A stretch of DNA of 64,000 nt from Sulfuricurvum sp. (lineage in GTDB: Bacteria; Campylobacterota; Campylobacteria; Campylobacterales; Sulfurimonadaceae). The stretch lies in assembly GCF_028713855.1 (NCBI RefSeq), contig NZ_JAQTNN010000003.1, positions 62,001 through 126,000 on the forward strand, read 5' to 3'. Below are positions 2,336-18,644 of this stretch, in pieces (the first letter of the stretch is position 1; each line of letters starts with the position of its first letter). The notes below the pieces were generated by a model. It was not told the origin of the DNA, did not search any database, and worked only from the letters and a program-made list of their open reading frames with translations. Position numbers and translations under genes: made by a program.

Positions 2336-4235
2336 CGCAATTTTCCTTCCCGATCGGATAATTCACATTCAATAGCGGAGGCGTTGCTTTCAAATTTCTC
2401 TGCAACCGGCTAAAGAGCGATTGCCCTCCGAAATAACTGCCGCACAGCACAATATCCGTCGCTTTGGTTTTCTCTTTGATTTCATTCAAAAGTTCACTGA
2501 AATAGTCTCCGAACGATTCGAAGATAGAATAGCTTAGATATACTGAATCTACCCCCGCAATTTGATAGCTGATAATACTGGATAAAAAGGCGACATGATT
2601 AAATCGATTGTCGTGCACTTTGGTATCGATTTGAAGTCCCCCTTTACCAATAAATTTTAGAGCTTCTCGCATGACTCCTTCATAACTCTTATCTTCCAGC
2701 CCCAAAATCATTGCCGTCGCTTCGAAAAGAGTGACATCGCTGTGTTCGAGGTCTAAGAGTAGCTCATATACATGCGGTAATTTATTTTTGATGTTATCCA
2801 TCAATCGATCCGAGCCCTCACGCAAAGTGCCCATTTTATCGATCAATCCTGCCGCGCTAAACGTATGCGGAGGAACAAGACGAATCACTTTTTTACCGTC
2901 ATAATAGAGAAATGACGGTTCATCCTGGAAATAAGCCCCCACAACTTTACTTCCGAATTTACCGTGCTCCGCAATAACCGACATAAAAGAGGCTTCATCT
3001 TCAGCCATAGTGTGAAAATTATTTGACTCAACGGCAGGTGTCTCTGTTTCAAGCTGATTGACTTTAAACGTTGATGCAGACGTGAAACGCCCCATTTGAT
3101 CAAACAACATCCCTTTATCATCTCTAATCCCGACAAGCCCGTGCGCGATACTTACAGTATCAGTTCCGATCGCTAAACGTGAAGGGAACGAAACCCGTTC
3201 ACCTGAAGTAATAAATTTGATATCTTTGTTTATAAAAAGGCGGATATCACTTTGATACTGGATATTCAAGTCAAATTCCATCACGAAATCAGCTTCACAC
3301 GGGCTTTCCAATGCTTCATAAACAATGTAGTCCAGTCCCAGCAGCGTCAACTCTTTTCCTAGTAAAATGGAAAAGCCCTCATCAGGATATTTAACATCTA
3401 TAGAGGTGCCAAAGGTATTTCTGAGGTTTTCATCTTTGAGCGCCACATGCAATATAGGGCGTTCAATGCTAAGCAATGCATTAAACTCATCATTAATCAA
3501 AGAGCAATACTCTGTGATTTTTGTTGCATTAACCAACATTAATACGCAGCCGTACTCCAGTTTCTCTGCACGGTAAAAACGACGGTATCCCATCGTTGTT
3601 TTCATCAACAATGTTTTACCGTCGCGCAATGCTTTTGCGGCGACTTCAAACATTGTTCTAAAGCTTCCCGGATCGTTGGCATAACGCTCTTTGTCTTTAT
3701 GCAATAATTTGACGGGGATACCGCACTCATGACATGAGTTCAATACCTGTTTTTCACGACGACCGAGACTTTTGGACTCCTGTTCGCATGTCGAACACGG
3801 TTGCACATAACTAAGGGAGGTATTGCTCCGTTCATACGGATAGTGTTCAAAAAAAGCGTATTGCCCACCACAATGGGTACATTGAGTAAAGGGATAATAA
3901 TAACGTTTTGACGAAGGATCAAACATCTCTTTCTGACAACTCGGACAAAGTCCAAGACCAAGAGGATATTCAATGTCGAAACTAGGAAGCTCTTCAGGCT
4001 CCCCCTCCATATCATAATGTTGTGAACTTGTCATAAAACACGAAGCCGGAAGGGTAAGTCCAATCTCTTCAATACACTCTTGAAGTTTTTCGTGATTGCT
4101 CTCAAAAGCACAAATAATTTTTGATTTTTGCTGATGAACAACTGCTTTAATGTTAAAAGAGCGGATCGTAGAAATCAAATAATTTTTTATATAAGGTTGA
4201 GAAAAAGAGGTCATCACCTCTAACGTAAATGCCAT
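2313..4235 (-). CDS. Degenerate HypF-like paralogue, probable hydrogenase accessory protein (HydE-like)
   Basis: This 640-aa protein is a divergent copy of HypF. It keeps a zinc-finger block (CPSCQKEMFDPS, CTHCGGQYAF, CSTCEQ, CHECG, about residues 97-170) and a Kae1/HypF-like C-terminal half, ending with VLCGSYFGGQSLFSRL where HypF has its GGGVFQN motif. The acylphosphatase VQGVGFRP motif and the HHYAH metal motif are missing, so the carbamoyltransferase chemistry is probably lost. Epsilonproteobacteria carry an accessory gene called hydE beside hydABC (Wolinella, Helicobacter); equating this gene with it rests on position and HypF likeness only. The start has a good AAGGA box. It lies just after the hydC terminator and overlaps hypF. 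Confidence 0.72.
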   Translation of the reverse strand: MAFTLEVMTSFSQPYIKNYLISTIRSFNIKAVVHQQKSKIICAFESNHEKLQECIEEIGLTLPASCFMTSSQHYDMEGEPEELPSFDIEYPLGLGLCPSCQKEMFDPSSKRYYYPFTQCTHCGGQYAFFEHYPYERSNTSLSYVQPCSTCEQESKSLGRREKQVLNSCHECGIPVKLLHKDKERYANDPGSFRTMFEVAAKALRDGKTLLMKTTMGYRRFYRAEKLEYGCVLMLVNATKITEYCSLINDEFNALLSIERPILHVALKDENLRNTFGTSIDVKYPDEGFSILLGKELTLLGLDYIVYEALESPCEADFVMEFDLNIQYQSDIRLFINKDIKFITSGERVSFPSRLAIGTDTVSIAHGLVGIRDDKGMLFDQMGRFTSASTFKVNQLETETPAVESNNFHTMAEDEASFMSVIAEHGKFGSKVVGAYFQDEPSFLYYDGKKVIRLVPPHTFSAAGLIDKMGTLREGSDRLMDNIKNKLPHVYELLLDLEHSDVTLFEATAMILGLEDKSYEGVMREALKFIGKGGLQIDTKVHDNRFNHVAFLSSIISYQIAGVDSVYLSYSIFESFGDYFSELLNEIKEKTKATDIVLCGSYFGGQSLFSRLQRNLKATPPLLNVNYPIGKENCVVGGVFL

Positions 4236-4307
4236 AATAATCCTTCATGATACTAAATCGATAGTTCTTTCATCCATCCCCCGCAGGGAATATATGAAAA
4301 CTCTATG

Positions 4308-4340
4308 AAAAAAGCCGAAGAGCTTTCGCTTCTTCGGCTT
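4308..4340 (-). terminator. Rho-independent terminator after hydC
   Basis: A perfect 10-bp stem (AAGCCGAAGA at 4312-4321 against TCTTCGGCTT at 4331-4340) with a 9-base loop. On the minus strand it runs straight into a T tract (A run 4308-4313 on the plus strand). It sits about 40 bases beyond the hydC stop and before the HypF-like gene, so it should set structural-gene messages apart from maturation-gene messages. Confidence 0.9.
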
Positions 4341-4381
4341 GCTTGGAAAGAATGATTTCTTCCTCTCTAAAAGTGCAGAAT

Positions 4382-5098
4382 CTATTTTTTGCCGGCTTTA
4401 TCATCTTTGACGAATTTTGAACCGCCGACCACGATAGCGATATCCGCCTCTTTCCAGAAAATTGTTCTCCATACCTGATAATAGATATGAAACACAATCC
4501 AGGAAATGATAAACCACATTGTATAGTGATGTGACAACCGTACATCCATTTTACTTCCGCCGGTCACATACAATGTCCAGTCAGTGGCAACATGTAACAT
4601 CCACGGCCACCACGATCCGATTGAACTTAGTCCTGATCCCAATCCCCACACGTACATTTGGAGACCGGTAAACAGCATCCAAAGAAGGAGCAAATGGAAA
4701 ATCGTGAAATAGACCGTATTAAAACTGTCCGAATGTGTTGAGTCGAACTCATTTTTACGGTTCAACGTCATCAAATTGACGACGACATCTTTAAACTCCG
4801 TAAGGTTTTTCGCATTTGGAATCACCTTTTTATACGGCTTTTCAAAACGGCTGAAAAAATACAGATAGACGATCGCAACCGATGTCACATCAAAGATGAT
4901 CGCAATAATAAAGTGCCCGTAACGATTCCATGCCATAACATATTTATCGACTGCACCGTCAGCAATGAATGTCTGATAATACGGATGCCCGATATAAAGA
5001 CCTGTCGCAATCGCTCCGATCATACTAAACGCATTAATCCAATGGATAATGCGCATGGCCGGCGTCATACGTTTAACTTGTTTGTACCCCTGATTCAT
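4382..5098 (-). CDS. hydC: [NiFe]-hydrogenase cytochrome b subunit HydC
   Basis: HydC is the di-haem cytochrome b that anchors the periplasmic HydAB dimer and passes electrons to menaquinone. The 238-aa protein has several hydrophobic spans and the family's His residues: MRIIHWINAF near residue 16, FHLLLLWMLF in the middle, and HHYTMWF plus VFHIYYQVW near the C-terminus. It starts 9 bases after hydB ends, with AAGGAG just upstream, and is followed by a strong terminator, so it is the last gene of hydABC. The protein is typical of the family. Confidence 0.95.
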   Translation of the reverse strand: MNQGYKQVKRMTPAMRIIHWINAFSMIGAIATGLYIGHPYYQTFIADGAVDKYVMAWNRYGHFIIAIIFDVTSVAIVYLYFFSRFEKPYKKVIPNAKNLTEFKDVVVNLMTLNRKNEFDSTHSDSFNTVYFTIFHLLLLWMLFTGLQMYVWGLGSGLSSIGSWWPWMLHVATDWTLYVTGGSKMDVRLSHHYTMWFIISWIVFHIYYQVWRTIFWKEADIAIVVGGSKFVKDDKAGKK

Positions 5099-5107
5099 GT
5101 TAACTCC

Positions 5108-6883
5108 TTAGATACTGCAAGAGGTATCTACTTTGTAAACAGCAAGCTCTTTACCTTTGGTATCGACAACGTGTACGGCACAAGCGATACATGGGTCAAA
5201 ACTGTGAATAGTTCGGATGATCTCCAACGGTTGTTCAGGATTGGCTACTTTGGTCCCGATCAAACTCGCTTCATACGCACCCATACGTCCTTTATAGTCA
5301 CGTGGAGCTGCATTCCAGGTTGAAGGAACGACCGCTTGGTAATTAATTACCTTTCCATCTGCGATACTGACCCAGTGTCCCAAAGAACCGCGCGGTGCTT
5401 CTGCAAGTCCCATACCTTTGGTACTCATACTGACTTCGTCGAAATTAAAATCAGTCCATGTTTTAAGGTCGCCAGCCGCAGCATTCGCCGCTAGTTCATC
5501 TACCCATTCTAGCATCACATCAGTCATTAGTGAGGTCTCAATAGCACGCGCTGCCGTACGCCCGATAGTACTGAACAATACTGTGATCGGAAGATTGCCG
5601 CGTTGTAAAAACTCGGTAACGTATTTTGTAATACGTTTGTCTTTTCGTGCGACACCGATAACCATACGAGCCAACGGCCCCACTTCCACACGGGTATCAT
5701 TGTAAATCGGAGATTTAATCCAACTGTATTTCTCTTTTGTTTTGAGATAAGCGATACCGTCTTCGCGTTTATCAAGACCGGTATATTCCGGAATCGTTTG
5801 ACCGTCATACGGATGAAGAGGTTTATCCCCTTTGTACCATGAGTGAGTCACATCTTCCGCAATTTTTGCTTGATCTACATCGGCTACTTTACTGATATCA
5901 CCACCGTAAACGACACCGCTTGGGAAGAGAAGTGCTGATTTATAAAAACCGGTATCATCCAAACGGAAATCACCGTAACTCATATAGTTCAGCAATCCAC
6001 CGCCGGTTCCACCGACCCCTTTTCCAGCCATAAGCTCTGTAAATGTCGCTTTTGAATCGGTTGCTTCGCCGGCATACATTGTTCCTGCCATATAGACATC
6101 CGGCAAATACGCTTCTTTTATAAATTTACGCCCTTCAAGTAGAAGTGATTTAAATAGTGCGATACGTGCCGGGTTTTGAATATCCTGAACACACGTTACC
6201 CCACCGACAACGATAGATTGTGGATGCGGATTTTTCCCACCGAAAATTGCCTGCATTTTTGCCAAATCACGTTGGATATCCAATGCTTGCAAGTAGTGGG
6301 CAACACCGATAAGGTTTTGTTCCGGAGTCAATTTATAATGAGCATTTCCCCAATATCCATTACCGAAAATACCCAAACGCCCTTGTTTTACAAATTTAGC
6401 CACACGATCTTGAATCGCTTTAAATTCACTCTCTCCGTCAATATACGGAGATTCTCCTGCAACAGTTGCCCATTTACGTGCTTCTGCCGCCGTTTTAGCC
6501 GGATCCGCCGAAAGAGCTGAAACAACATCGACAAAATCCAGTGCATGAAGATGATAGAAGTGAACCAAGTGATCGTGCACATACAATGCACCCTGGATCA
6601 AGTTTCTTACAATACGTGCATTTTTAGGAATAGTAATCTTAAACGCATCTTCAACCGCTTCGATAGAACGTTGATAGTGTGTACCGGTACAAACACCGCA
6701 AATACGCATTGCCAACAATCCGCAGTCACGTGGGTCACGCCCTTGTAGAATCGTCTCAATACCACGAAACATTGTTGAAGCACTGTATGCATCGACAATG
6801 GTATTATTCTCATCAATTACTGCTTCAATACGCAAATGCCCTTCAATACGTGTGATAGGGTCAACTACAATATGTTTACTCAT
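5108..6883 (-). CDS. hydB: [NiFe]-hydrogenase large subunit HydB (periplasmic uptake enzyme)
   Basis: This is the catalytic subunit of the membrane-bound H2 uptake hydrogenase; it is carried through the Tat system by HydA. At 591 aa it has both Ni-Fe ligand motifs: RICGVCTGTHYQ near residue 61 and DPCIACAVH near the C-terminus. About 20 residues (VVDTKGKELAV onward) follow the terminal His and should be cut off by the maturation protease. Its start overlaps the hydA end by 8 bases. It is clearly related to the second large subunit at 13011-14705 but is 27 residues longer. Confidence 0.97.
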   Translation of the reverse strand: MSKHIVVDPITRIEGHLRIEAVIDENNTIVDAYSASTMFRGIETILQGRDPRDCGLLAMRICGVCTGTHYQRSIEAVEDAFKITIPKNARIVRNLIQGALYVHDHLVHFYHLHALDFVDVVSALSADPAKTAAEARKWATVAGESPYIDGESEFKAIQDRVAKFVKQGRLGIFGNGYWGNAHYKLTPEQNLIGVAHYLQALDIQRDLAKMQAIFGGKNPHPQSIVVGGVTCVQDIQNPARIALFKSLLLEGRKFIKEAYLPDVYMAGTMYAGEATDSKATFTELMAGKGVGGTGGGLLNYMSYGDFRLDDTGFYKSALLFPSGVVYGGDISKVADVDQAKIAEDVTHSWYKGDKPLHPYDGQTIPEYTGLDKREDGIAYLKTKEKYSWIKSPIYNDTRVEVGPLARMVIGVARKDKRITKYVTEFLQRGNLPITVLFSTIGRTAARAIETSLMTDVMLEWVDELAANAAAGDLKTWTDFNFDEVSMSTKGMGLAEAPRGSLGHWVSIADGKVINYQAVVPSTWNAAPRDYKGRMGAYEASLIGTKVANPEQPLEIIRTIHSFDPCIACAVHVVDTKGKELAVYKVDTSCSI

Positions 6884-8114
6884 GGCTCTCTCCTGATTTT
6901 TCTCGTTTACCTGCTATGGCACTGGCTGCTGCGTGGATACCGATACCGATACCGACTGCCGTCAACATGCCCAAACCGAATTCATCAACGGTTTTTTCTA
7001 CTCCACCTGTCGGTGCTTTGATTTTTGCATCCGCCATTGGACGCTCATACGCGTATTTATCCCAGAAATCGGGTTCTGAACATCCGATACATCCGCGTCC
7101 GACACCGATCGGCCAGTTAACCGCATCGTTGTAACGGACAATGGAACAGTTGTTAAAGGTCATAGGCCCTTTACAACCCATTTTATAGAGACAGAAATTG
7201 TTTTGAGCCCCTTTGTCACCCCATTCTTCAACGTATTCACCCGCATCAAAGTGTGCACGACGTTCGCAGTTATCATGAATACGATAACCGAATGCAAATT
7301 TAGGACGTAATAGTGAATCAAGTTCAGGGATTTGTCCTGTCAATAAATAATGTAAAATTACCCCGACCATATTTGCCGGATTAGCCGGACACGCAGGGAT
7401 ATTAATAATCGGTTTGTTTTTAACCACACTCATAACCCCAACTGCACCGGTTGGGTTTGGAGAAGCCGCCGGAATACCGCCGAATGTAGCACATGCACCT
7501 ACAGCTACAACTGCCGCCGCGTTTTCAGAACAGCGCATAAGATGATCATGGAACGTTTCACCGGCTGCACCGATAGTTCCGTATTTACCGTCCATTCCCA
7601 TAGGGATAGAACCTTCAACAAACAAAAGATATTTTCCTTTGAAAAGTTCCATAGCCTCATCAAGCTGTTTTTCAGCCTGATGACCGGAGGCAGCTTGCAA
7701 CGTCTCATGATATTCGAGAGAAATGATATCAAGTACGATCTCATCGATTTTAGGTCCGTCTGCACGCAAAAGCGCTTCGGAGTTACCCGCACAGTCTTGA
7801 AGCTCCAGCCAAATAACGGGAGCGCGGTTCATCATAACTGCCGCATCGGCAACCAATGGTGTAAACATAGGAGGAAGCATCAACATAGCTGTCGTCGCAC
7901 TCGCCCATTTCATAAACTCTCGTCTGTCAATGCCATTCTCTTCTAAAAGCTCTGAAAAATCGAGTCTATTCGCAGGCGTTTGTGCACGCATTTCATTTAA
8001 TCGCGCTTCACATTTTACGAACAACTCTTGGTAATACGTATCACCCTTGTTCGTTTCAACGCGCGAACTTTTCGAAGTAAACAGTTTTTTAACTGCTTCT
8101 ATTTTATCGGACAT
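6876..8114 (-). CDS. hydA: [NiFe]-hydrogenase small subunit HydA with Tat signal
   Basis: Electron-transfer subunit with three Fe-S clusters. The 412-aa precursor has a long Tat leader with DRREFMKWASATTAML at residues 63-78 (twin Arg 64-65), the mature domain from about residue 95, and a C-terminal membrane helix (LTAVGIGIGIHAAASAI). Cluster ligand regions seen are GACATFGG, IPACPANP, IHDNCERR, MGCKGP, NNCSIV and GRGCIGC. In the proximal-cluster motif the expected C-x-x-C reads DCAGNSE: the second Cys is Asn111. A strong GAGGAGG ribosome site precedes the ATG. It is the first gene of hydABC; the 219 bases upstream hold no other gene and no promoter I can define. Confidence 0.97.
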   Translation of the reverse strand: MSDKIEAVKKLFTSKSSRVETNKGDTYYQELFVKCEARLNEMRAQTPANRLDFSELLEENGIDRREFMKWASATTAMLMLPPMFTPLVADAAVMMNRAPVIWLELQDCAGNSEALLRADGPKIDEIVLDIISLEYHETLQAASGHQAEKQLDEAMELFKGKYLLFVEGSIPMGMDGKYGTIGAAGETFHDHLMRCSENAAAVVAVGACATFGGIPAASPNPTGAVGVMSVVKNKPIINIPACPANPANMVGVILHYLLTGQIPELDSLLRPKFAFGYRIHDNCERRAHFDAGEYVEEWGDKGAQNNFCLYKMGCKGPMTFNNCSIVRYNDAVNWPIGVGRGCIGCSEPDFWDKYAYERPMADAKIKAPTGGVEKTVDEFGLGMLTAVGIGIGIHAAASAIAGKREKSGESHE

Positions 8115-8333
8115 GGTCCCCTCCTCAAATTTTTATGAACAATCATTCAGTATTGTACGTCTGGATAACTTAAACGAATATTTAAAAGGTAAAATTTAAT
8201 TTAAAAAGGGAGTTTGTTATTCAAATTTAGGACTTATACTGGTATTTTTAACATTTTAGACCGATAAATAAATATTATTTTATAAGTAAGTGATAGATTT
8301 TGAAAAAGTTATTTTACAGCGGAAGTAGAAACC

Positions 8334-8930
8334 TCAATCAACCAACACGATTCCCATCGTTTCGAGCAGAAAAAGTGCCTCATATCGGTTGAAAATAGCC
8401 CCCTTGAGATGGTTGGAGCGTATATCGATAGAGGTGTTGGAAGCGTCGGTAAAGTTGGCTTCCTCCAAATGAGTATTGCCGAACAGCGCCCCTTTGAAAT
8501 CGCTCAGGGTGAAATCGGCTTTTTGAAACGTTCCGTTGCGAAAATCGACCTCTTTAGCTCGGCACTCCCGCATTATCAATCCCTCTATGTTCAGACCGAA
8601 AAAATTGCTGTCGTTTAGAATGCACTCGCGAAAGCGGATCGGGTCGGCATTGAGAAGGCTCTTCCAATCCGCCATCGTCCAGTCGATCCCGATCATCTTG
8701 CACGAAACAAACTCGACGTCGCTCATTTTGGTGTTGGTGAGCTTCATGAGGCTCAGGTTGCAGTTTTCGAAACGGCATTCGGTAAATTTGCAGGAGGAAA
8801 AAAAGGTTTCGCTGAAATCGCAGGAGACGAAGGTGCAGTCATCGAATTCGGCTTTGGTGATCTTTTTGCCGTGCAGATCAACGCCCTCGAATTTTTCGGC
8901 GAATACGTCCATGGTATCTATAATAGTCAT
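8334..8930 (-). CDS. Pentapeptide-repeat protein (Qnr/McbG-like fold)
   Basis: The 198-aa protein has repeats of the A(D/N)LXX type along most of its length: FDDCTFVSCDFSETFFSS, CKFTECRFENCNLS, MRECRAKEVDFRN and KADFTLSDFKGALF. This predicts a right-handed beta-helix. A break around VSCKMIGIDWTMADW separates two repeat blocks, as in Qnr-type proteins that mimic DNA and bind gyrase, though function cannot be assigned from repeats alone. I chose the ATG at 8930 because a longer frame to 8996 would run into the upstream hydrogenase gene. It starts 34 bases after the group-2-like large subunit and is probably co-transcribed with it. Confidence 0.8.
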   Translation of the reverse strand: MTIIDTMDVFAEKFEGVDLHGKKITKAEFDDCTFVSCDFSETFFSSCKFTECRFENCNLSLMKLTNTKMSDVEFVSCKMIGIDWTMADWKSLLNADPIRFRECILNDSNFFGLNIEGLIMRECRAKEVDFRNGTFQKADFTLSDFKGALFGNTHLEEANFTDASNTSIDIRSNHLKGAIFNRYEALFLLETMGIVLVD

Positions 8931-8964
8931 ATAAGCCCTTTTTGAAATACTGATCGGTTTTATT

Positions 8965-10260
8965 TTAATGCGTCGTACACACCGAACAGACATCAAAGGT
9001 GCGGAATAGGAGCGACGCTTTCGCGATCGATTCTGCTCCGATCATCGCCTTCTGCGCCACACCGAGATTCGTTTGCGTTCCGTTCCCCAGATTCCACTGC
9101 GTCGGGGTGATAATCGAATACGATACTATTTTCCCCTTTTCTATCGTAGCACGGTGGATCAGTGATCCGCGCGGCGCTTCGATAATCCCGAGCCCTTCCC
9201 CGCTGATGCTCTCAATAGAGGGAGGGGTAATGAATGAAGGCTGAGAAAGATCAAGTGATGTCAAAAGCTGCCGCACGTGTGCACACAAAGATACCATCTC
9301 CTCGACCCGAGCCGTAATCCGTGTCACCGCACTGTCTCCGTATAAACGATGCAGAGCACTCACGCCTGTATGTTCCTGAACCAAAGCACGCGCCAACGGT
9401 CCCGTCTCAAAAAATTCTCCGTTGTAGAGGGCATTTTTGGCATAGGTATTTCCCCCTTCCGCAAAGGTATTGGAAATATCTTCACTCACATTATCCGAAC
9501 TCGCACTGCTGCGTTCTAAATGAACGATAATCTCTTGGGTCTCACCCAGAACCAAGAATCGACCGTGACTTTTGCCCTGTTCCAAAAGTCCAAGCCGCTC
9601 AAAATTGCGTAATACGGTTCCGAAATCCCCTTTGAGACTCAACAATGTGTTTTGGCTCATCGCTTGGTTAAACGCCTCAGGAGTGCATCCCAATACCTCA
9701 TCAGCAATAAACCGCTCCACTTCGGAGAGAATTTTCAGCGCCTGCATCACCTCGATATAGGTCGGATCGCACGTCACCCCTCCCGGGATAGCATACGAGC
9801 TATGGGGCCACTGACCGCTGAAAAGGGCACACAACTGATTTACTTGAGACGATACATACAAAGCTTTAAGCGCTACCTTCGGCTCTTTTTCTAAAAGCTT
9901 GCCACTCTCATGGAGCATTATCAAATAGAGCCATTTGATATGGTTTTGGATCAATTCGCACGAGAGCGTGATTTGACGAATAGCCTTTGCCTTATCGCTG
10001 ATACGTATCTTGACCCCTGCATTCTGGTAGATATTTTCGATCATTTTCACCGTGGCAATCAGATGCGAATGACCGCAGATACCGCAGACACGGGGAGTGA
10101 TCACCAACGCATCGAGGGCATTACGCCCTTCCAAAATCGCTTCCATTCCCCGAAAATGTAAAAAACGGATATTGGCATCTCGGACGATTCCGCTTTTATC
10201 GGTTTTAAAATCGAGTACCGCTTCCCCCTCGATCCGCTCGATCAGTTCATGCGTTATCAT
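8965..10260 (-). CDS. Cytosolic group-2-like [NiFe]-hydrogenase large subunit
   Basis: The 431-aa large subunit has intact ligand motifs, RVCGICGHSH near residue 57 and DVCSVCTTH at the very C-terminus. The protein stops exactly at the His that normally marks the protease cut, so no tail needs removal. H2-sensing HupV/HoxC-type subunits are known to be like this, but so are some catalytic enzymes. It is much shorter than HydB and only distantly similar. It overlaps its small subunit by 14 bases. Neither subunit has an export signal, so it is cytosolic. Role: H2 sensor or H2 uptake; the TetR gene in front favours neither strongly. Confidence 0.9.
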   Translation of the reverse strand: MITHELIERIEGEAVLDFKTDKSGIVRDANIRFLHFRGMEAILEGRNALDALVITPRVCGICGHSHLIATVKMIENIYQNAGVKIRISDKAKAIRQITLSCELIQNHIKWLYLIMLHESGKLLEKEPKVALKALYVSSQVNQLCALFSGQWPHSSYAIPGGVTCDPTYIEVMQALKILSEVERFIADEVLGCTPEAFNQAMSQNTLLSLKGDFGTVLRNFERLGLLEQGKSHGRFLVLGETQEIIVHLERSSASSDNVSEDISNTFAEGGNTYAKNALYNGEFFETGPLARALVQEHTGVSALHRLYGDSAVTRITARVEEMVSLCAHVRQLLTSLDLSQPSFITPPSIESISGEGLGIIEAPRGSLIHRATIEKGKIVSYSIITPTQWNLGNGTQTNLGVAQKAMIGAESIAKASLLFRTFDVCSVCTTH

Positions 10261-11173
10261 CGATCAACCTCTCTTCGAGCCGTTTAATATGGAACGATTT
10301 TGCCGCTCCTGCCAGAGCCAGATAGCTCCGTTTCGGTATCCCCAACGGCATCTCTGAGGGAATTGACATGTACGTTTTCGTCGAGAAAAGATTGCTTTTG
10401 GGGAAAGTAGGTTCGGTGCATCCGACACACGGTGTGCCTGCTCTGGTTTTGGAACTCACCTCATTCCAGAGAATTTTATTGCAGCTGCCATGCGTCATCG
10501 GGCCCTGACACCCTTGAGCATAAAAGAGACACCCCTCTTTGGTTCCGAAATGATCGCTGTCCACTTTCCACTCAAAATACTCATTGCGTAAACATCCGTT
10601 ATGGACAAGATAAGAATAAAGCGCTTTCGGACGGCGATACTCATCCACCGCAATCGTTTTGCCCGAAACGATCATATCGATGACAAAACTGAGCCACTTC
10701 GGATGGGCGGGACAGCCGCTGAGGGTAATCACTTTCTCTCGCATAGAACGTAAGGGACCACTCTCCTGCTCTTTATCAAATAATATTCCGCTGATATGCT
10801 CCGGTGCCCCCTCTTTAAAAATCCCTCCGAAGCTTGCGCAGCTTCCCATCGCAATAATATGTTTGGTTTTGGAAGCAAGCGCAAGTAAAAGGGTCTCCAT
10901 TGGCACCCCCGCACGCTCAAAAGAAGCACTGTATGCCCCCTCGAAAATGAGGATATCCGATTTAGGAATTTTTTTTACCACCTCTTTGAGTGTTTTTTGA
11001 GCGGGGAGGATCGGATGATGGATAAATTCTACTTCATCCAAAAGCGTTCCCAACAAGGGATCATTTAAAAAAGAGTGGGTATTGCCGTTGCAGGTGATTC
11101 CCTGCAGCCAAATGATTTTGAGTTTAGTTGGATTTGAGGGCATTGTAGATGTTATCGCTGATGGAGGATTCAT
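10247..11173 (-). CDS. Cytosolic group-2-like [NiFe]-hydrogenase small subunit
   Basis: The 308-aa small subunit (from 11173) lacks a Tat leader and a C-terminal anchor. Motifs: WLQGITCNGNTHSFLN at residues 22-37, MGSCASFGG, LSGCPAHPKW, HNGCLRNEYF, AQGCQGPMTHGSC and TPCVGCTEP. The proximal C-x-x-C is C-N-G-N, the pattern I recall from cyanobacterial HupS of group 2a. I set the start at 11173 because GGAGAG lies 4-5 bases upstream; an ATG at 11206 has no better site and overlaps TetR more. It overlaps the TetR gene end by 50 bases, so TetR, small and large subunit form one operon. Confidence 0.9.
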   Translation of the reverse strand: MNPPSAITSTMPSNPTKLKIIWLQGITCNGNTHSFLNDPLLGTLLDEVEFIHHPILPAQKTLKEVVKKIPKSDILIFEGAYSASFERAGVPMETLLLALASKTKHIIAMGSCASFGGIFKEGAPEHISGILFDKEQESGPLRSMREKVITLSGCPAHPKWLSFVIDMIVSGKTIAVDEYRRPKALYSYLVHNGCLRNEYFEWKVDSDHFGTKEGCLFYAQGCQGPMTHGSCNKILWNEVSSKTRAGTPCVGCTEPTFPKSNLFSTKTYMSIPSEMPLGIPKRSYLALAGAAKSFHIKRLEERLIDDNA

Positions 11174-11717
11174 AACTCTCCAACGGTTTGGGAAGAATTT
11201 TTTCACCGTTTATAAATACCATCCCGCCCAAGTACCCCATAAAAAGACCGAATGCGCTAAAAAATTCCTGATCTTTGAGTTCGCCTGATCGAACCCCTTC
11301 TTCGAAAAAAATCATCAGTTCCGTCACAAAGGCGGATACACAGATCATCCCTTCACAACAGTTTTGAAATACTTCACGATTCGACAGATAAACTCTCAAA
11401 AAATATTCAATCGTCTCAGGGCGTTCTTGTGCAATTTTAAAATACATATGAACAATTGCTTCTATTTTCTCTTTGGTGTTGAGAGGGCTCTCATTGATTT
11501 TCCGAATCTCTTCCCCCAGTATATTGGCGATATAGAGTATTAAATCCTTCGCCAACATCTCTTTCGAGGTAAAATAATTATAAAGATTTCCGACACTCAT
11601 TCCGATTTTTTCAGCTATAGAGGGCATTGTCGTTTGGTAAAACCCCTCTTTGGAAAATAATTCCAATGCTTTTGTCATGATGGAAACTTTACGTTCTTCT
11701 TTTGTTAATCGTGCCAA
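11124..11717 (-). CDS. TetR/AcrR-family transcriptional regulator
   Basis: The 197-aa protein has a TetR DNA-binding domain in residues 1-55 (helix-turn-helix around MPSIAEKIGMSVGNLYNYF) and a helical ligand-binding C-terminal domain. The start is TTG with AGGA 8 bases upstream. It leads the operon of the cytosolic group-2-like hydrogenase, with a 50-base overlap into the small subunit, so control of that operon or of itself is likely. The C-terminal domain gives no hint of ligand. Confidence 0.92.
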   Translation of the reverse strand: MARLTKEERKVSIMTKALELFSKEGFYQTTMPSIAEKIGMSVGNLYNYFTSKEMLAKDLILYIANILGEEIRKINESPLNTKEKIEAIVHMYFKIAQERPETIEYFLRVYLSNREVFQNCCEGMICVSAFVTELMIFFEEGVRSGELKDQEFFSAFGLFMGYLGGMVFINGEKILPKPLESYESSISDNIYNALKSN

Positions 11718-11748
11718 ATTCTATTCCTGTCTAAGATTCATTAACGTA

Positions 11749-11754
11749 ATTATA
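11749..11754 (-). promoter_or_regulatory. Candidate -10 box and operator for the TetR-hydrogenase operon
   Basis: TATAAT on the minus strand (11754 to 11749), about 30 bases before the TTG start. No -35 is recognisable, which is common in this phylum. The overlapping ATTAACGTAAT (11740-11750 on the plus strand) is a short imperfect palindrome at the likely start point and could be the TetR operator. Confidence 0.4.
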
Positions 11755-11772
11755 GCGAATACACATTCATAA

Positions 11773-12927
11773 CTATATTTCGATATTGAGCTGATTACGC
11801 CCACGCTCTTTAGAAACATATAATGCTTTATCCGCTCGGGATAAAATATTTTCCATCACGCTATCATCAGAATTGGATTGGGTAACTCCGATACTGATGG
11901 TTATCTTAATATCCTCGGTATCAAAACGCAAATCAGCCACTTTTTGACGGATTCGCTCACCTAATTCAACGGCTTGTTTTAAGGCTGTATGGGGGAGAAT
12001 AAGTAAAAATTCTTCTCCCCCGAACCGAGCGACATAATCATTTCGCCGAACGGTATCTCGCATGCACTTGCAAACACTCTGTAATACCTCATCACCCTTT
12101 GCATGTCCGTATCGGTCATTGACACTCTTAAAAAAATCAATATCAATCATTAAGACCGTAAAAGGGATTCCGTCTCGAACCATCTCTCTTATCTCATGGC
12201 AGAGAACTTCTTCAGCTGCACGTCGATTCATTATATTTGTCAATACATCCGTTTTTGACATTTTATTCAGATTTTGAATAAGCCGTTTCAATAGCATAAC
12301 AACATAATTGACATGCATCAATCCTGTCAGGGCAAGTAACAATGCAAGATACCATGTACTTTCCAAACGCCCTGTATCAGGATCATGGATAATCGTCTGA
12401 TGGTTGATAATGGCAAATGCCTGAGCCCCTTTGACAAGTAAAAAAAACAGTATCGGTAAATTGACCAACAGCGTAATCGTCAAACCGAATTCTTTGACAA
12501 TAGAACGATACGAGATAATGACCGTTCGAATCCCCATCCAAAGTACGATAAAAGAGACCGTCATAACGATGATGGATGTTCGCATTGAGAAACTCAAAGT
12601 CCACACAGAAATGATCCCAAAAAATATGATAAGACCCGCATCTTCTTTCCATCGATAGGGTTCAAAGAACAGCGCTTCATTGGCTCGTCGAACCATAATC
12701 ATGACCACAACAATAAGAAACTGTGCAATCCAAATATGCGAGAAGCCTACTCCTACCGCATTCAAAGGCGAGGCCATGAAATATAACCCGCTAAAAAAAG
12801 CAAATCCGCTCAGCCAAATTCCCACGCTGCGTATTTCTGGAATAAGCTTTATCCCGACTAACCATCCTATCCCATAAACGAACTGTTGCAATGCAAGAAA
12901 AAAAACTATCTTATCCATGTCACTCAT
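11773..12927 (-). CDS. Membrane-bound diguanylate cyclase (GGDEF)
   Basis: The 384-aa protein has about seven hydrophobic segments in residues 1-220 (a 7TM-type sensor) and a C-terminal GGDEF domain that makes cyclic di-GMP. The active site is intact as GGEEF within ARFGGEEFLLILP, and the inhibitory I-site RxxD is present as RRND five residues before it. No EAL domain follows. It is between the two hydrogenase operons on the same strand. Its 5' end is 83 bases from the end of the Ech/fusion operon, so it may be read from that operon or from its own promoter. Confidence 0.92.
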   Translation of the reverse strand: MSDMDKIVFFLALQQFVYGIGWLVGIKLIPEIRSVGIWLSGFAFFSGLYFMASPLNAVGVGFSHIWIAQFLIVVVMIMVRRANEALFFEPYRWKEDAGLIIFFGIISVWTLSFSMRTSIIVMTVSFIVLWMGIRTVIISYRSIVKEFGLTITLLVNLPILFFLLVKGAQAFAIINHQTIIHDPDTGRLESTWYLALLLALTGLMHVNYVVMLLKRLIQNLNKMSKTDVLTNIMNRRAAEEVLCHEIREMVRDGIPFTVLMIDIDFFKSVNDRYGHAKGDEVLQSVCKCMRDTVRRNDYVARFGGEEFLLILPHTALKQAVELGERIRQKVADLRFDTEDIKITISIGVTQSNSDDSVMENILSRADKALYVSKERGRNQLNIEI

Positions 12928-13010
12928 TTCCTCGATCTCCCAGAGATCATAAAATGCCGATATCTCTTACTATGACAGATAGTTCTTTAAAACTGAATTA
13001 TAATTCACTT

Positions 13011-14705
13011 TTAAAAGGTGTTCGAACTTATAAGTTTATATTCAGACAACTCTCTTCCCGTTGCATCGATCACGTGTACCGCACAAGCCAGACAAGGATC
13101 AAACGAATGAACCGTCCGTAATACCTCCAACGGTTGTTCCGGATTCGATAAAGTAATGCCGATCAACGACTCTTCATAGGCTCCGCGATGATTAGCGGAA
13201 TCTTTAGGCGAAGCGTTCCATGTCGTCGGAACCACTGCCTGATAATTAGCAATTTTTGCATCTTCTATCCGAATAAAATGCCCAAGAACACCGCGCGGTA
13301 CTTCGAAAATTCCCGCCCCTTTCGCTTCATGAGGCATCTCTTCGAAACTGTATTTCGTCCATGTCGTCTCATCAAAATATTTGACGTTTTCGATCAAATC
13401 ACTCATCATATCAAAAAGATAATCGCAGCAGATCTGCGCCTCTACCGCACGCGCTGCATTGCGCCCGATTGTCGTGGAAAAATCAATCAGTTCCAGAGAG
13501 GAACGTTCCATAAACCGTTCCATATAGGGACGGATCACCGGAGAGTTTTTACTATATCCGATGATCATACGAGCCAATGGCCCTACTTCCATCACTTCGC
13601 CATCGTATCGAGGTGCTTTGACCCAGCTGTATTTCCCTTCACTTTTGAGGGTTCCATCCTCGTTAAGATCGGTATAGAACGGTGTAGTTTCTCCCTCATA
13701 GGGAGAGAGCGGTTCATTATTTTCATACCATGAACGTGACGCCTCTTCGGTAATCTTAGCCGCATCAAACGGTGCAATATTCCCAAAATCATGCCCTTTA
13801 ATCACTCCGGATTCAAATAGAACCGACTGTTTGCCAAAACGGTATCCGCCGCATCCCATGAAATTTCCGCTCGCTCTCCCCTCACCTGATGTGATTGTCT
13901 CACGATAAGCATCCACAATCATCATCATATCAGGGACGTAGGCACGCTCAATAAACCCTCTCACATCTTTGATAATAAAGAGGAAATCATTTAATCTCTG
14001 AGGGTTGAGGATTTCGGCAACACTCGTTACTCCACCCACGACAAGATTTTGGGGATGAGGAGTTTTACCCGCGAAAATCGCGATCGCTTTGGAGATATCT
14101 CTCTGAATATTGAGTGCTTCGAGGTAATGATTCATATGGATAAGATTTTGTTCCGGAGAGAGTTTATACATCTCATGTCCCCAATAGCCGTTTGCAAAAA
14201 GCCCCAAACGCCCGGCTTTGACATAGCTGCTCAGTTTTTCTTTCACACTCTCCAAATGGGCAACGGAATTTCGATAGGGGTTTGCACTCCACTTTTGTGC
14301 TTCAAGCGACGCTTTGAGACAATCCGCGTTTAAAGCTCCCGTGATATCGACATAATCAAGTGAGTGGAGATGGTAATAATGGACGATATGATCTTGGACG
14401 AACAGCGATAGCGTAACGAGATTGCGAATAATCTCAGCATTATGGGGAATCGTGATGCCGTACGCTTCTTCAACCGCACTGATGGAAGCACGGTAATGGA
14501 CATTCGTACATACTCCGCAGATTCGCTGTGCAATCAGACCGGCATCTCTGGGGTCACGCCCCTGCAAAATCGTCTCAATCCCCCGAAACAGCTGTCCGGA
14601 TGCCCACGCTTCACGTATGACGTTATTTTCATCAATCTCAACTTCGATCCGCAGATGCCCTTCGATCCGCGTAATGGGATCGATAACGATTTTTCGGTTA
14701 CTCAT
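13011..14705 (-). CDS. Group-1-like [NiFe]-hydrogenase large subunit, cytosolic partner of the fusion protein
   Basis: The 564-aa large subunit resembles HydB (it opens IVIDPITRIEGHLRIE) and keeps both ligand motifs, RICGVCTNVHY near residue 61 and DPCLACAVH near the end, with a removable tail after the His. It therefore needs a maturation protease, unlike the group-2-like and group 4 large subunits. Its start overlaps the fusion-protein stop by 8 bases, which pairs the two. With no Tat signal on the partner it should stay in the cytosol. Likely reaction: H2 oxidation or evolution coupled through the partner's Fe-S and FAD to NAD(P). Confidence 0.95.
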   Translation of the reverse strand: MSNRKIVIDPITRIEGHLRIEVEIDENNVIREAWASGQLFRGIETILQGRDPRDAGLIAQRICGVCTNVHYRASISAVEEAYGITIPHNAEIIRNLVTLSLFVQDHIVHYYHLHSLDYVDITGALNADCLKASLEAQKWSANPYRNSVAHLESVKEKLSSYVKAGRLGLFANGYWGHEMYKLSPEQNLIHMNHYLEALNIQRDISKAIAIFAGKTPHPQNLVVGGVTSVAEILNPQRLNDFLFIIKDVRGFIERAYVPDMMMIVDAYRETITSGEGRASGNFMGCGGYRFGKQSVLFESGVIKGHDFGNIAPFDAAKITEEASRSWYENNEPLSPYEGETTPFYTDLNEDGTLKSEGKYSWVKAPRYDGEVMEVGPLARMIIGYSKNSPVIRPYMERFMERSSLELIDFSTTIGRNAARAVEAQICCDYLFDMMSDLIENVKYFDETTWTKYSFEEMPHEAKGAGIFEVPRGVLGHFIRIEDAKIANYQAVVPTTWNASPKDSANHRGAYEESLIGITLSNPEQPLEVLRTVHSFDPCLACAVHVIDATGRELSEYKLISSNTF

Positions 14706-17127
14706 GCGGTTTCTCCTCTAATTTACGGTTATTGGCGTATTGGTCAAACGCGATTTTCCCCTGACCGCAGGCGAAACATCCATGCCCTACCTGCACCGGC
14801 CAGCTCGTCCCTTCGTTAAATTTCACGAGAGAGCAGTTGAGATCGGCATAGGGGCCTTTGCATCCCATCTGGAATAGACACCACCCCTTTTTAGCCCCTT
14901 CGTCGCCCCATTCGAGGACAAACTCATCCAGATCGTAATGACCTCTGCGTTCGCAGTTGTCATGCACCCTAAATCCGTACGCCCATTCGGGACGATTTTT
15001 AGCGTCCAGTTTGGGAAATTCATCGAACATGATGTAATGCAACAGCGTTCCGACAATGTTAATCGGATTGACCGGACATCCGGGAAGGTTGATGATATCA
15101 GAGCGTCCAAGCGCTTCGCTCACCCCGACCGCACCCGTTGGATTGGGTGCTGCCGCAACCACTCCGCCATCAAAAGCGCATGATCCTACCGCCATGACCG
15201 CCGCCGCATTGGCGGCAACCCGTTTAAGCAGATCAACTCCCGTTTCCCCTTTTGGGCCGATGCGCAAGAACTTTCCATCCAGCCCCATCGGTACTGCCCC
15301 CTCAACGATGAGTACGTATTTCCCCGCATCATTTTGGACGATGTCCCTCAGAACTTGTTCGGATTGCTCACCCGATGCCGCCATCAGCAGTTCATGGTAA
15401 TCGAGGGATATGTATTTGAGGATAAGATCATCGATTTTAGGATGGGCTGTTTTGATAAACCCTTCCGAATTTCCGCTGCAATCGGCGAGTTCCAGCCAAA
15501 TGATCGGGATTTTATTCAGCTGTGTTACCCCCTCTTTGACCACCTCTTCGTAACTGGGATGCAAATGCATTGAGGCAGTGATCATCGAAACCCAGCGGTT
15601 GTATTCGTGACTCATTTCAAACGATGCAATCGCCTCTTCGAGATTGTCACTGCTGAGCTGATTTTTCGGGTGGATACGATTGTATTTTTCAATCCGTTCT
15701 CGAACAACCGCGAGTTCAGCCTCTTTAGCCGCTGCTTCGCGCTCTTGTTTTAACCGTGCCGCCTCTTCGGGATCGATAGGGGTCGCCTCCAAAATCGCAC
15801 ATACATCCTGTTTGCACCGTCCGCAGGTACGTCCTGCTTTTGTGTATGCTTTGAGTTCAGCGAACGATGTCACGGCGTTTTCTCGGATCAGAGTAATCAG
15901 TTCCTGCTCATGTACCCCTTCACAGCTGCAAACCAGCCGCCCGTTTTCAGACATCAGACGGTTGGAATAAAAATAAGCCGCATCGATCGGCTCATCCAGT
16001 TCCATCAAACGCTTCAGTCTCAAAAGATCGATATTGGTATTGATTCCGATAAAGCGTTTAAGGCGGTCGTGATTAACGATGTATTGATCGATTCGATTTT
16101 CATGCGAGATAAGAATGGTTTCGTTATCCGGATCTTTCGGATTAAATGTGGGTGAAGTGACATCCGCAAATAAAAATGATCCCACTTTAAGCCCGTCGAT
16201 CGATACCGCTTCATGAAATTCCAAAGCTTCACGGCTCAGCAGATTGGCAATCGCGACATCGGCTTGCAACGTGCATTCTTTGACCCGTCCTGCGATAAAT
16301 CCACCCTCACGAAGCTGTGCCGCTTCGCCGACACAAAATATGTCGGGATCAGAGGTGCGCATCGTTTCATCGACCAAAATCCCTTTGTCACACGCCAACG
16401 ATTCACGTACAAAGGCGATATTCGGATCGATACCGACACCGAAGATGAGGAAAGGATCGTCTATTTCCGTCCCTTTACGGGTCAAAATGCGTGTTAGTTT
16501 CGATCCGACGATCTCGCGATCGACAATCGCATCGTTAAAATCAATCCGAATACGCGGATCGGCTTCAAAAATCCCCCGTATCAGTGCAACGGCCGCAGAA
16601 TTCAACTCACGAGAATAGAGATAATCGCTTCGCACGATCAGCGTAATGCTTTTCGCCTCCGTGTTATGCATCAATGTGTCGAGCAATTCCAAAGCGATCG
16701 GCCCCGCACCGATGATGACAACATTTTTTCCGACAATCCCGCGTGCGATCTCTTCGCAATCACGCACACTTCGAAAGGTTGCCGCATTATCAATCCCGGT
16801 AATATCAAAAAGAGATTTCGGGATAGAACCCGTTGCAATAATGAGCTTATCGTAGGAGAAAACGGCATGTTCACTAAACACACGTTTGCTCTTGGGATCG
16901 ATAGAAACAATTTTTTGATTCAGTTCCAACCGTACATTCGGATGAAGTTCCAGGGCAATACCCTCAGCACATTTGGAATGATCGACCAAAGAGCAAAGAT
17001 GAATCCGATCATACGGAGGATGCGCTTCATCAGAGACGATGAGGATATCCGATTCCGGCATTTGTTCCATAATGGAATTTGCGATATAAACGGCAGAAAT
17101 TCCGCCTCCTACAATGACGATTCTCAT
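14698..17127 (-). CDS. Fusion: NirB-like FAD/NAD(P) oxidoreductase + BFD [2Fe-2S] + [NiFe]-hydrogenase small subunit
   Basis: An 809-aa three-part protein. Residues 1-395 form a NirB-like pyridine-nucleotide-disulfide oxidoreductase head: FAD site IVIVGGGISAVYIA, NAD(P) site VVIIGAGPIALELL at 136-149, and SDPDIFCVGEAA at 259-270. Residues 396-450 are a BFD-type [2Fe-2S] domain (Cys400, 402, 435, 438). A charged, probably helical linker spans 452-482. Residues 540-809 are a full hydrogenase small subunit (DCSGNSE, VGSCAFDGG, LPGCPVNP, HDNCERR, MGCKGP, LNCSLV, GCFACG) with no C-terminal anchor. Residues 506-539 align without gaps to the HydA Tat leader but lack RR. It overlaps EchF by ATGA and the large subunit by 8 bases. 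The prediction is a cytosolic H2:NAD(P) enzyme; nucleotide choice is unclear. Confidence 0.93.
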   Translation of the reverse strand: MRIVIVGGGISAVYIANSIMEQMPESDILIVSDEAHPPYDRIHLCSLVDHSKCAEGIALELHPNVRLELNQKIVSIDPKSKRVFSEHAVFSYDKLIIATGSIPKSLFDITGIDNAATFRSVRDCEEIARGIVGKNVVIIGAGPIALELLDTLMHNTEAKSITLIVRSDYLYSRELNSAAVALIRGIFEADPRIRIDFNDAIVDREIVGSKLTRILTRKGTEIDDPFLIFGVGIDPNIAFVRESLACDKGILVDETMRTSDPDIFCVGEAAQLREGGFIAGRVKECTLQADVAIANLLSREALEFHEAVSIDGLKVGSFLFADVTSPTFNPKDPDNETILISHENRIDQYIVNHDRLKRFIGINTNIDLLRLKRLMELDEPIDAAYFYSNRLMSENGRLVCSCEGVHEQELITLIRENAVTSFAELKAYTKAGRTCGRCKQDVCAILEATPIDPEEAARLKQEREAAAKEAELAVVRERIEKYNRIHPKNQLSSDNLEEAIASFEMSHEYNRWVSMITASMHLHPSYEEVVKEGVTQLNKIPIIWLELADCSGNSEGFIKTAHPKIDDLILKYISLDYHELLMAASGEQSEQVLRDIVQNDAGKYVLIVEGAVPMGLDGKFLRIGPKGETGVDLLKRVAANAAAVMAVGSCAFDGGVVAAAPNPTGAVGVSEALGRSDIINLPGCPVNPINIVGTLLHYIMFDEFPKLDAKNRPEWAYGFRVHDNCERRGHYDLDEFVLEWGDEGAKKGWCLFQMGCKGPYADLNCSLVKFNEGTSWPVQVGHGCFACGQGKIAFDQYANNRKLEEKPHE

Positions 17128-17549
17128 ACCGATTCCTCACTCTTGTTTTTGATTTTTGCCGCTTTAAAATCTTCACGGCTTTGTTTGCATGCTGCTTCCC
17201 AGACAAACCATCCCTCGTTTGCCCCGTCTTCTTTCAGCGCTGATTGCTGTTTCGTTTCGCTTTGCCATAGCGCCTCTTGCGGTTTTGGGCAGGCACGTAC
17301 ACATTCGCCGCAGTAGATACAAAGCCACGGGTTGTAGCGGTACTCTTTCTCCCCCTCTAGCGGCTGATAGAACAAAATTGCCCCCGGAGGACACACTTTC
17401 TCGCATTTATCGCAGAAAATGCACGCTTCTTTGTCATATTCGATCAATCCCCTGTACCCTTTCGGAAGGACAAGTTCGGTTGCAGGATAGTTTACCGTAT
17501 GTACGGGTTTAAAAAGATTTTTAAAAGCCTCAAACATAGAACGAATCAT
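17124..17549 (-). CDS. Group 4 hydrogenase ferredoxin-like subunit (EchF/NuoI type)
   Basis: The 141-aa protein carries two [4Fe-4S] motifs, CIFCDKCEKVCPPG and CIYCGECVRACP, spaced as in NuoI/EchF/HycF. It is the electron wire between the EchC/EchE catalytic pair and a soluble donor or acceptor such as ferredoxin. The C-terminal third is charged and not family-specific. Its start has AGGA 8 bases upstream. It ends in an ATGA overlap with the fusion protein, so the electron-exit subunit of one hydrogenase is translationally coupled to the flavin head of another. Confidence 0.9.
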   Translation of the reverse strand: MIRSMFEAFKNLFKPVHTVNYPATELVLPKGYRGLIEYDKEACIFCDKCEKVCPPGAILFYQPLEGEKEYRYNPWLCIYCGECVRACPKPQEALWQSETKQQSALKEDGANEGWFVWEAACKQSREDFKAAKIKNKSEESV

Positions 17550-17558
17550 AATTTTATC

Positions 17559-18644
17559 CTATTTTGCCGTGCAGGACATGCACGGATCGAACGAGGCGAG
17601 GATGGCAGGGGCATCAGCGTACTCTGAGCCTTTAAATACTTCCATCATCGCCGGAATAGCCGAAAAGGTCGGCGTTTTGATCCGCACCCTCTCCAGCATA
17701 TTCTGACCGTTACCGCGCACCAGATAAAAAAGCTCCCCGCGCGGTGCCTCGACACGAACAACAGCCTCGCCGCTCGGTTTACCTTTGGTCTTCTCCTGAA
17801 TCTCACCGGAGGGAAGATTATCCACAATGTTTCGGCACATCGCAATCGAATTGAGAATCTCTCGAAGACGGACAAAGTTACGGGCATGAATATCCCCGGT
17901 CGATTCAAGAACCATCGTATACCCTAGTGCCTCATAGGGAAAATCGCTCGTCTCGACACGCACGTCGGTCGCTAACCCTGCCGCACGCGCCAAAGGCCCT
18001 AATGCGTTGTAGGTATAGGCCTGATCCAATGTTAATACACCGACCCCTTTGTATTTCAATGAAAGCGACCAGTTGTTATCAAAAAGCCCTAGCAGAGTAT
18101 CAATTTTATCCGACAACAATTCGAGGTTTTTATGGATCAGCGCGCTCAGTTCAGGGGTCAGATCACGATTCACTCCGCCGATAGCGATAAAATCAAACTG
18201 AACACGATTTCCGCTGATCGCTTCTTGCAGATCCATCACCAGTTCCCGATCGGCCATAATCTGCATAAAAAGAGCTTCAAATCCGGCATTCTCCGCCGTG
18301 TGGGCGAGACAGAGCATATGCGAATGGATACGATCCAGTTCCACCATCAGCATCCGCAGATATTTGATCCGGTCGTTGGCAACGTAACCGAGCAGTTTTT
18401 CGACTGCCAGTGTATACGAGAGCGAATGGGTGATTGCACACAGACCGCAAACGCGGGCGACAACATACCCCACTTGCTTGAACTCGAAACTGCGGGTACA
18501 CGCCAGTTCAACGCCGCGATGGACGAATCCGACGTCGGCATCCACCCCGATGATTTTCTCATTTTCACACTCGAATTTAAAACGGATCGGCTCCAGCAGT
18601 GAGATATGCTGCGATCCCAGAGGAATTTGGATCGTTTTTTTCAT
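17559..18644 (-). CDS. Group 4 hydrogenase catalytic large subunit (EchE/CooH type)
   Basis: The 361-aa NuoD-related subunit keeps the Ni-Fe ligands that complex I lost: RVCGLCAITHS near residue 64 and DPCMSCTAK at the extreme C-terminus. Because nothing follows the last motif, no protease step is needed. Its length matches the EchE/CooH branch rather than HycE, which carries a fused NuoC part; here that part is a separate gene. A GGGGGGAAT-like ribosome site precedes the start, which overlaps the NuoC-like gene by ATGA. Confidence 0.92.
   Translation of the reverse strand: MKKTIQIPLGSQHISLLEPIRFKFECENEKIIGVDADVGFVHRGVELACTRSFEFKQVGYVVARVCGLCAITHSLSYTLAVEKLLGYVANDRIKYLRMLMVELDRIHSHMLCLAHTAENAGFEALFMQIMADRELVMDLQEAISGNRVQFDFIAIGGVNRDLTPELSALIHKNLELLSDKIDTLLGLFDNNWSLSLKYKGVGVLTLDQAYTYNALGPLARAAGLATDVRVETSDFPYEALGYTMVLESTGDIHARNFVRLREILNSIAMCRNIVDNLPSGEIQEKTKGKPSGEAVVRVEAPRGELFYLVRGNGQNMLERVRIKTPTFSAIPAMMEVFKGSEYADAPAILASFDPCMSCTAK

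Follow-up and report, generated by a model that had tools for sequence, protein, structure and literature searches.

A TetR-family regulator and its predicted operator accompany group-2d [NiFe] hydrogenases in Campylobacterota and Aquificota: a candidate hydrogen-sensing circuit

The hydrogen (H2)-sensing hydrogenases of group 2b (HupUV/HoxBC; e.g., C. necator pHG1, locus L038) are cytosolic two-subunit enzymes whose large subunit (LSU) ends at the C-terminal His, and they work with a HupT/HoxJ kinase and a sigma-54-dependent regulator (HupR/HoxA). For group 2d, the HydDB table gives "Unresolved role. May generate reductant for carbon fixation or have a regulatory role" (PMC5037454), while the available passages on Aquifex Hase III describe an enzyme that is hard to detect in extracts and "could have a regulatory function" (PMC10052474). 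In S. multivorans, Kruse et al. noted a TetR upstream of HupSL and named it a possible hupSL repressor; the same passages report hupL transcripts as absent or very low (PMC5357620). Here we analyze a group-2d locus in a 64,000-nucleotide stretch of a Sulfuricurvum sp. contig (NZ_JAQTNN010000003.1, positions 62,001–126,000; hereafter the window), in which a TetR-family gene precedes those for the small subunit (SSU) and LSU. The enzyme resembles HupUV/HoxBC in its cytosolic two-subunit build, in its LSU terminus, in having a regulator and, at several loci, an uptake hydrogenase as its genetic neighbors, and probably in sensing H2. Unlike HupUV/HoxBC, it belongs to a separate clade, the position of HoxC Phe110 is unconserved among its Campylobacterota relatives, and a putative TetR repressor stands in place of the kinase and sigma-54-dependent regulator. 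It shares its clade with Aquificota sequences and its architecture with group 2d as described (Aquifex Hase III, Hydrogenobacter Hup2, Sulfurospirillum HupSL, Aliarcobacter HuaSL), from which it does not differ in kind.

Because the TetR-2d pair travels together in two phyla and has a likely DNA target at uptake-hydrogenase promoters, it probably senses H2; judged from sequence, we put the probability that the group-2d hydrogenase is an H2 sensor acting through the co-encoded TetR at roughly two in three. The operator, its regulon, a cysteine pair in TetR, and the two-phylum link to TetR are new here, while the TetR upstream of HupSL was already known from S. multivorans. In the literature as searched (listings and passages, with few subscription papers), neither this operator nor a TetR-2d sensing model was found.

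The gene pair is conserved with few exceptions. Among 397 Campylobacterota genomes, 113 carry a 2d LSU and 112 of those a TetR ortholog; TetR occurs without 2d in two genomes, and 282 have neither. In the single 2d genome without a TetR ortholog (G295), 2d sits at a contig end. We compared 114 loci (113 Campylobacterota genomes plus one Sulfurovum plasmid, with L037 dropped as the same plasmid as L084): TetR lies upstream of the SSU and LSU on the same strand in 112, the other two being at contig ends, and the SSU of a group-1b uptake hydrogenase follows the 2d cassette in 102. The pairing extends to Aquificota (81 genomes), where all 37 genomes with a full 2d LSU (>400 bits) have TetR (in two pieces in G428 and partial in G439), two have TetR only, and 42 have neither. 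In Aquificota, TetR lies between hypB and either 2d or an uptake hydrogenase, or apart, and is present also where it does not adjoin 2d; a scan of named genomes found an Aquificaceae contig on which the end of a TetR gene precedes 2d. The initial annotation had remarked that the expected partner kinase (HupT/HoxJ) was absent, and this stands: no HoxJ-like match was found at 2000–21000 of the window, other kinases of the genome not being searched, and 3/114 related loci had one.

Two observations on the genomic setting of 2d may be added. The 50-kb S. paralvinellae plasmid NZ_CP041407.1 (L037) holds TetR-2d, an uptake hydrogenase, hypF, proteases, and hypBCD together, and this module adjoins a site-specific integrase and a transposase. 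In G390, the intact 2d LSU gene is followed downstream by part of another copy (L062, G390:C121:18710-18946), a duplicate that has decayed.

Every tandem locus (102/102) has a palindromic sequence, TGAATGAnTATTCATT, ahead of its group-1b uptake hydrogenase genes. Across 83 regions between the 2d LSU and the 1b SSU, TGAAT-N4-ATTCA was present in 53 and AATGA-N4-TCATT in 56, compared with a mean of 0 in eight two-mer shuffles. A matrix trained on 94 promoters (91 distinct tandem loci without L037, L053, and L054; consensus ATGAATGAATATTCATTT, 18.8 bits) scored at least 10 bits in all 94 regions, versus a maximum of 7.5 in shuffled regions. When the scored family was excluded from the matrix, 92/94 regions still reached 10 bits, versus 3/94 shuffled. 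All 11 tandem loci outside the training set scored at least 19 bits, and the divergent arrangement in G125 scored 15.0.

Many of the listed regions have a -10-like element just before the operator. In the window, TACAAT (8152–8157) touches the site upstream of the uptake SSU gene hydA, as expected for a repressor, and TetR would repress rather than activate. This hydA site is the strongest match in the window. The initial annotation had looked to a promoter at about 11740–11754, which is next to the predicted tetR operator and its TATAAT; it had not picked up the hydA and hyp sites, the cysteine pair, or the conservation across two phyla. Three places in the 64-kb window reach at least 9 bits (before hydA, the GGDEF gene, and tetR), a number not above chance, and all three fall within the hydrogenase cluster. 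Upstream of tetR, at most 28/108 regions reach 10 bits, and seven of these, from Nautiliaceae (L043, L044, L046, L047, L050, L051, L056), are the start of hypA (MHEYSIV, translated by eye), leaving 21; autoregulation as a general rule was dropped on these counts.

Genomes whose cassette and uptake operon lie apart allow the operator to be followed in trans. In 11 such genomes, 12/13 hydA promoters score at least 12.8 bits, even though the cassette may be 750 kb away (G343) or on another contig (G131, G329, G356); the sole miss is one of three uptake copies in G225. In genomes without TetR-2d, sites were found at 0/13 close controls (SSU 70–84% identical) and 3/14 distant ones, or 3/27 overall (Fisher 1e-6 for trans versus control promoters, with promoters and related genomes treated as independent). 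The dependence of the hydA site on TetR in trans points to TetR as its binding protein, and the pairing of TetR with this operator is very probable.

The operator also crosses the phylum boundary. A matrix built from Campylobacterota only found sites of at least 12 bits in 12/18 Aquificota loci whose TetR has hyp or hydrogenase genes linked to it, versus 1/12 loci with unlinked TetR. Aquificota locus sequence totaling 247 kb contained 66 positions that reached 12 bits, and a shuffle of it 4 (strands counted apart). In Aquificota tandem loci, a site lies between LSU2 and hydA in 12/12 and before hypB in 8/12, two of the four misses being at or near contig ends or in short records. Within the window's genome, the exact pattern TGAATGANYRTTCAY has two matches and its reversed control none: one at hydA, and the other 11 bp ahead of a gene for a small transporter-like membrane protein, after which come HypB, HypC, and HypD. 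The small membrane protein has an HAFGPDH motif and no Pfam or NCBIfam match; we take it to be nickel-transporter-like. Similar sites precede the transporter-like gene or hypB in G308, G060, G316, G264, and G031, the operator recurs where G333 and G374 carry a second copy of the uptake hydrogenase (L203 and L216), and operator-like sites precede cysK in G338, G362, and G133. This pattern scan covered 24 genomes, including G073, which lacks a TetR ortholog and has no site. As a separate observation, an exact operator at L213 (G217:C7:343561-343575) stands 19 bp ahead of a short gene that, judged by eye, resembles NikR; this connects the operator with nickel control.

The TetR protein matches PF00440 (TetR_N; E 7e-14), and its AlphaFold model (predicted local distance difference test, pLDDT, 87) is all-helical, with TetR folds as its PDB likenesses, the nearest being FadR-type and unnamed regulators. 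It resembles ligand-controlled TetR-family repressors (FadR, RutR, and HapR folds) in fold and DNA-binding domain; unlike them, it has an invariant C-x4-C in its second domain and a hydrogenase as a lasting genetic partner. This cysteine pair (C121/C126, in CEGMxC) is present in 105/105 orthologs of at least 200 bits and in the printed sequence stretches of 30/30 Aquificota TetRs, and all six paralogs that score above 120 bits but are not encoded next to 2d lack both cysteines. C121 lies in a low-confidence loop of the model (pLDDT 65–71) and C126 opens a helix. TetR is also better conserved than the enzyme: Nautiliaceae TetRs are 61–63% identical to the window's and their LSUs 40–44%.

As for the enzyme, the LSU in the window ends at ...FDVCSVCTTH-stop, and the group-1b LSU of the same window retains an extension beyond the C-terminal His. 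The initial annotation read this as a "pre-cut" LSU ending at the His, with no export signal on either subunit, a build common to H2-sensing hydrogenases. The bare C-terminus is indeed shared by all 114 related loci, the 2d rows, and 5/5 2b references, while 5/5 2a references have the extension, and the 2d SSU has no twin-arginine-like signal such as the 1b SSU carries (RREFMKWASATTAMLMLP). The terminal residue varies, however (H in 83 loci, Q in 26, and K in 5), so "ending at the His" is not strict. Calling the enzyme a sensor solely on its bare C-terminus was an idea we dropped, as the feature splits 2b and 2d from 2a and is no proof of sensing. The suggestion to place the enzyme in a hydrogenase phylogeny was followed for the LSU (45 rows, with no 2c or 2e reference): it is a 2d enzyme and not 2b, with class assigned from tree position rather than by the HydDB classifier. 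Campylobacterota and Aquificota 2d form one clade (support 100/100), apart from five 2b sequences, themselves separate (100/100), five 2a-like, and four group-1 sequences; the reference labels come from annotation and from what we presume of these enzymes. The bulky gas-channel residues of HoxC, which we take to be Ile62 and Phe110, were set aside as proof of sensing: the first position is uninformative because Ile occurs in all group-2 rows, and the second, Ile in the window, is F/Y in 12/12 Aquificota and F in 1/19 Campylobacterota, the others mostly V, I, or T.

The initial annotation had left open an uptake enzyme feeding cytosolic reductant or an unusual H2 sensor. The second is favored because TetR is a conserved partner whose probable operator occurs at the promoters of uptake-hydrogenase and hyp genes, in trans as well, although sensing itself is not proven. 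In the proposed circuit, TetR would, without H2, occupy its operators beside or just after the -10 element and repress the uptake hydrogenase and transporter-hypBCD operons. Oxidation of H2 by 2d would then signal to TetR, most simply at Cys121/Cys126 or via contact with the small subunit, and TetR would leave the DNA, allowing uptake hydrogenase and maturation genes to be made. We infer H2 as the signal, the coupling of 2d to TetR, and the chemistry of that coupling. A single TetR protein may replace the histidine kinase and response regulator of the HupUV/HoxBC-type system. Direct transfer of H2 electrons along the Fe-S chain of 2d to Cys121/Cys126 (a disulfide or a metal/Fe-S site), releasing the repressor, is a more tentative and rather doubtful version; it would mean a one-protein output instead of a two-component relay across Campylobacterota and Aquificota. 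Carriers of TetR-2d dominate many vents and sulfidic waters, and the circuit, if true, would be a kinase-free H2-sensing system with a ready H2-responsive promoter. With the operator, its trans dependence, and the regulon, the role of 2d can be addressed at the bench using defined DNA, protein, and mutants.

Several observations weigh against an H2-sensing TetR-2d pair. Control promoters without TetR-2d carry sites in G165 (21.1 bits), G123 (15.0), and G210 (11.2), though those in G123 and G165 are possibly relics because their family (f10) otherwise carries TetR-2d. TetR occurs without 2d in G143 and G348, each with an operator at hydA, and in the Aquificota G407 (broken frame) and G423, so TetR may work without 2d; the cysteines are kept in L053 and L054, with remains of 2d not searched for in the 1.6-kb TetR-hydA gap of L054. 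The enzyme falls outside the 2b clade, the residue at the HoxC Phe110 position is not bulky in 18/19 Campylobacterota enzymes, and it retains every Fe-S ligand that a catalytic hydrogenase has, the SSU ligand cysteines included; loss of such ligands was dropped as a sensor mark. Published transcription is mixed in the passages available: RNA sequencing of A. butzleri hDNRA1 has both 1b sets rising 2.3–6.2-fold with H2 and 2d falling (PMC12286921), a drop that misfits simple TetR autoregulation, while Sulfurospirillum hDNRA2 1b is equal between H2 and formate (PMC12286921) and S. multivorans 1b (MBH) is constitutive and not raised by H2 (PMC5357620). Finally, 2d associates with ATP-citrate lyase, found in 76/113 2d genomes versus 43/284 others (odds ratio 11.5).

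This last association, together with the retained Fe-S ligands, fits a published proposal (PMC5401914, PMC5357620, and the HydDB table in PMC5037454, each as far as available) under which 2d would be a catalytic uptake enzyme supplying cytosolic reductant (ferredoxin, reverse tricarboxylic acid cycle) and would merely be co-regulated, with TetR governing the H2 regulon. The enzyme is not always found with the lyase, however, as a reductant supplier to that cycle would be: the lyase is missing in 37/113 2d genomes, including Arcobacteraceae and Sulfurospirillum-like families (a count that drops six weak 23–27-bit matches; including them, 32 genomes lack it). Lowering of 2d by H2 in A. butzleri and its bare detectability in Aquifex and S. 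multivorans, in the passages cited above, also argue against such a role, which would leave the strict TetR-2d pairing across two phyla unexplained, and we consider it unlikely. Somewhat less likely again, TetR could be a repressor of H2 metabolism with its own ligand (nickel, a thiol/redox cue, or a metabolite), independent of 2d, which would then be one regulon member. The four genomes with TetR and no 2d (two of them checked for the hydA operator, which is kept), the transporter-hyp operon in the regulon, and a cysteine pair that could sense redox unaided would suit this idea, but TetR co-occurs with and adjoins 2d near-perfectly, and not hydABC or hyp alone.

It is far less probable that TetR represses its own 2d operon only, the hydA/hyp operator belonging to another regulator such as one of Crp/Fnr type, whose site architecture we take to be a 5-N4-5 palindrome like this one. 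The proposal by Kruse et al. that TetR represses hupSL (PMC5357620, in the passages available) and the sites before some tetR genes point that way; against it, the hydA site follows the presence of TetR in trans and is common to Aquificota carrying the same TetR, and the hypA starts among the tetR-upstream matches are coincidence. A sensing TetR-2d pair acting on hydA and hyp promoters remains the reading we prefer.

Table 1. Hydrogenase-cluster features in the window (positions count from its first nucleotide).
Feature	Position	Strand	Details
Group-1b uptake hydrogenase cytochrome b subunit	4382..5098	-	named by position and annotated relative in L037
Group-1b uptake hydrogenase LSU	5108..6883	-	
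Group-1b uptake hydrogenase SSU (hydA)	6876..8114	-	with export signal; proposed main target
Predicted TetR operator before hydA	8133..8150	-	CTGAATGATTGTTCATAA, 18.5 bits; TACAAT 8152-8157
Group-2d [NiFe] hydrogenase LSU	8965..10260	-	431 aa; PF00374; without C-terminal extension
Group-2d SSU	10247..11143	-	frame open to 11206; start 11143 from relatives, 11173 possible
TetR-family putative repressor	11124..11717	-	PF00440; invariant C121 and C126
Predicted TetR operator (weak) before tetR	11753..11770	-	ATGAATGTGTATTCGCTA, 10.6 bits; TATAAT 11749-11754
GGDEF (diguanylate cyclase) gene	11773..12927	-	upstream of tetR, same strand
Predicted operator upstream of GGDEF gene	12993..13010	+	TGAATTATAATTCA palindrome, 14.7 bits

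The TetR, SSU, and LSU genes overlap one another on the minus strand (Table 1). The TetR/SSU overlap had been given as 50 bases, which requires the SSU to start at ATG 11173. Relatives L008 and L014, which have only one possible start, favor the ATG equivalent to 11143 and hence an overlap of 20 bases, although 11173 stays possible because GGAG precedes it. LSU matches in the genome are confined to this region: two group-1 LSUs, the 2d LSU, and a weak group-4-like match.

The GGDEF gene, with its own predicted operator, recalls the diguanylate-cyclase-linked hydrogenases of group 2c (for which the LSU tree had no reference). Unlike in group 2c, it is not a constant partner: a GGDEF gene lies beside tetR in a minority of related loci only, and the idea of a constant partnership with TetR-2d was dropped. 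In the Aquificota loci L316, L317, and L322, a diguanylate cyclase gene lies between TetR and the uptake SSU, an echo of this arrangement.

Other genes of the cluster were also noted. A pentapeptide-repeat gene (8334–8930, minus strand) separates the 2d cassette from the group-1b operon, and one occupies the equivalent position in G308 and G338. Further upstream, 14698–17127 (minus strand) encodes an 809-aa protein in which a pyridine-nucleotide oxidoreductase and a BFD [2Fe-2S] domain are fused to a hydrogenase small subunit, adjoining its own group-1-like large subunit (13011–14705, minus strand); the pair resembles an NAD(P)H-linked hydrogenase of the cytosol, and similarly long frames (about 800–925 aa) occur in many relatives. 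A gene at 2313–4235 (minus strand), downstream of the uptake hydrogenase as in most fetched loci, encodes a protein of 640 aa that matches HypF weakly and only in part; its counterpart in S. paralvinellae is annotated as hypothetical.

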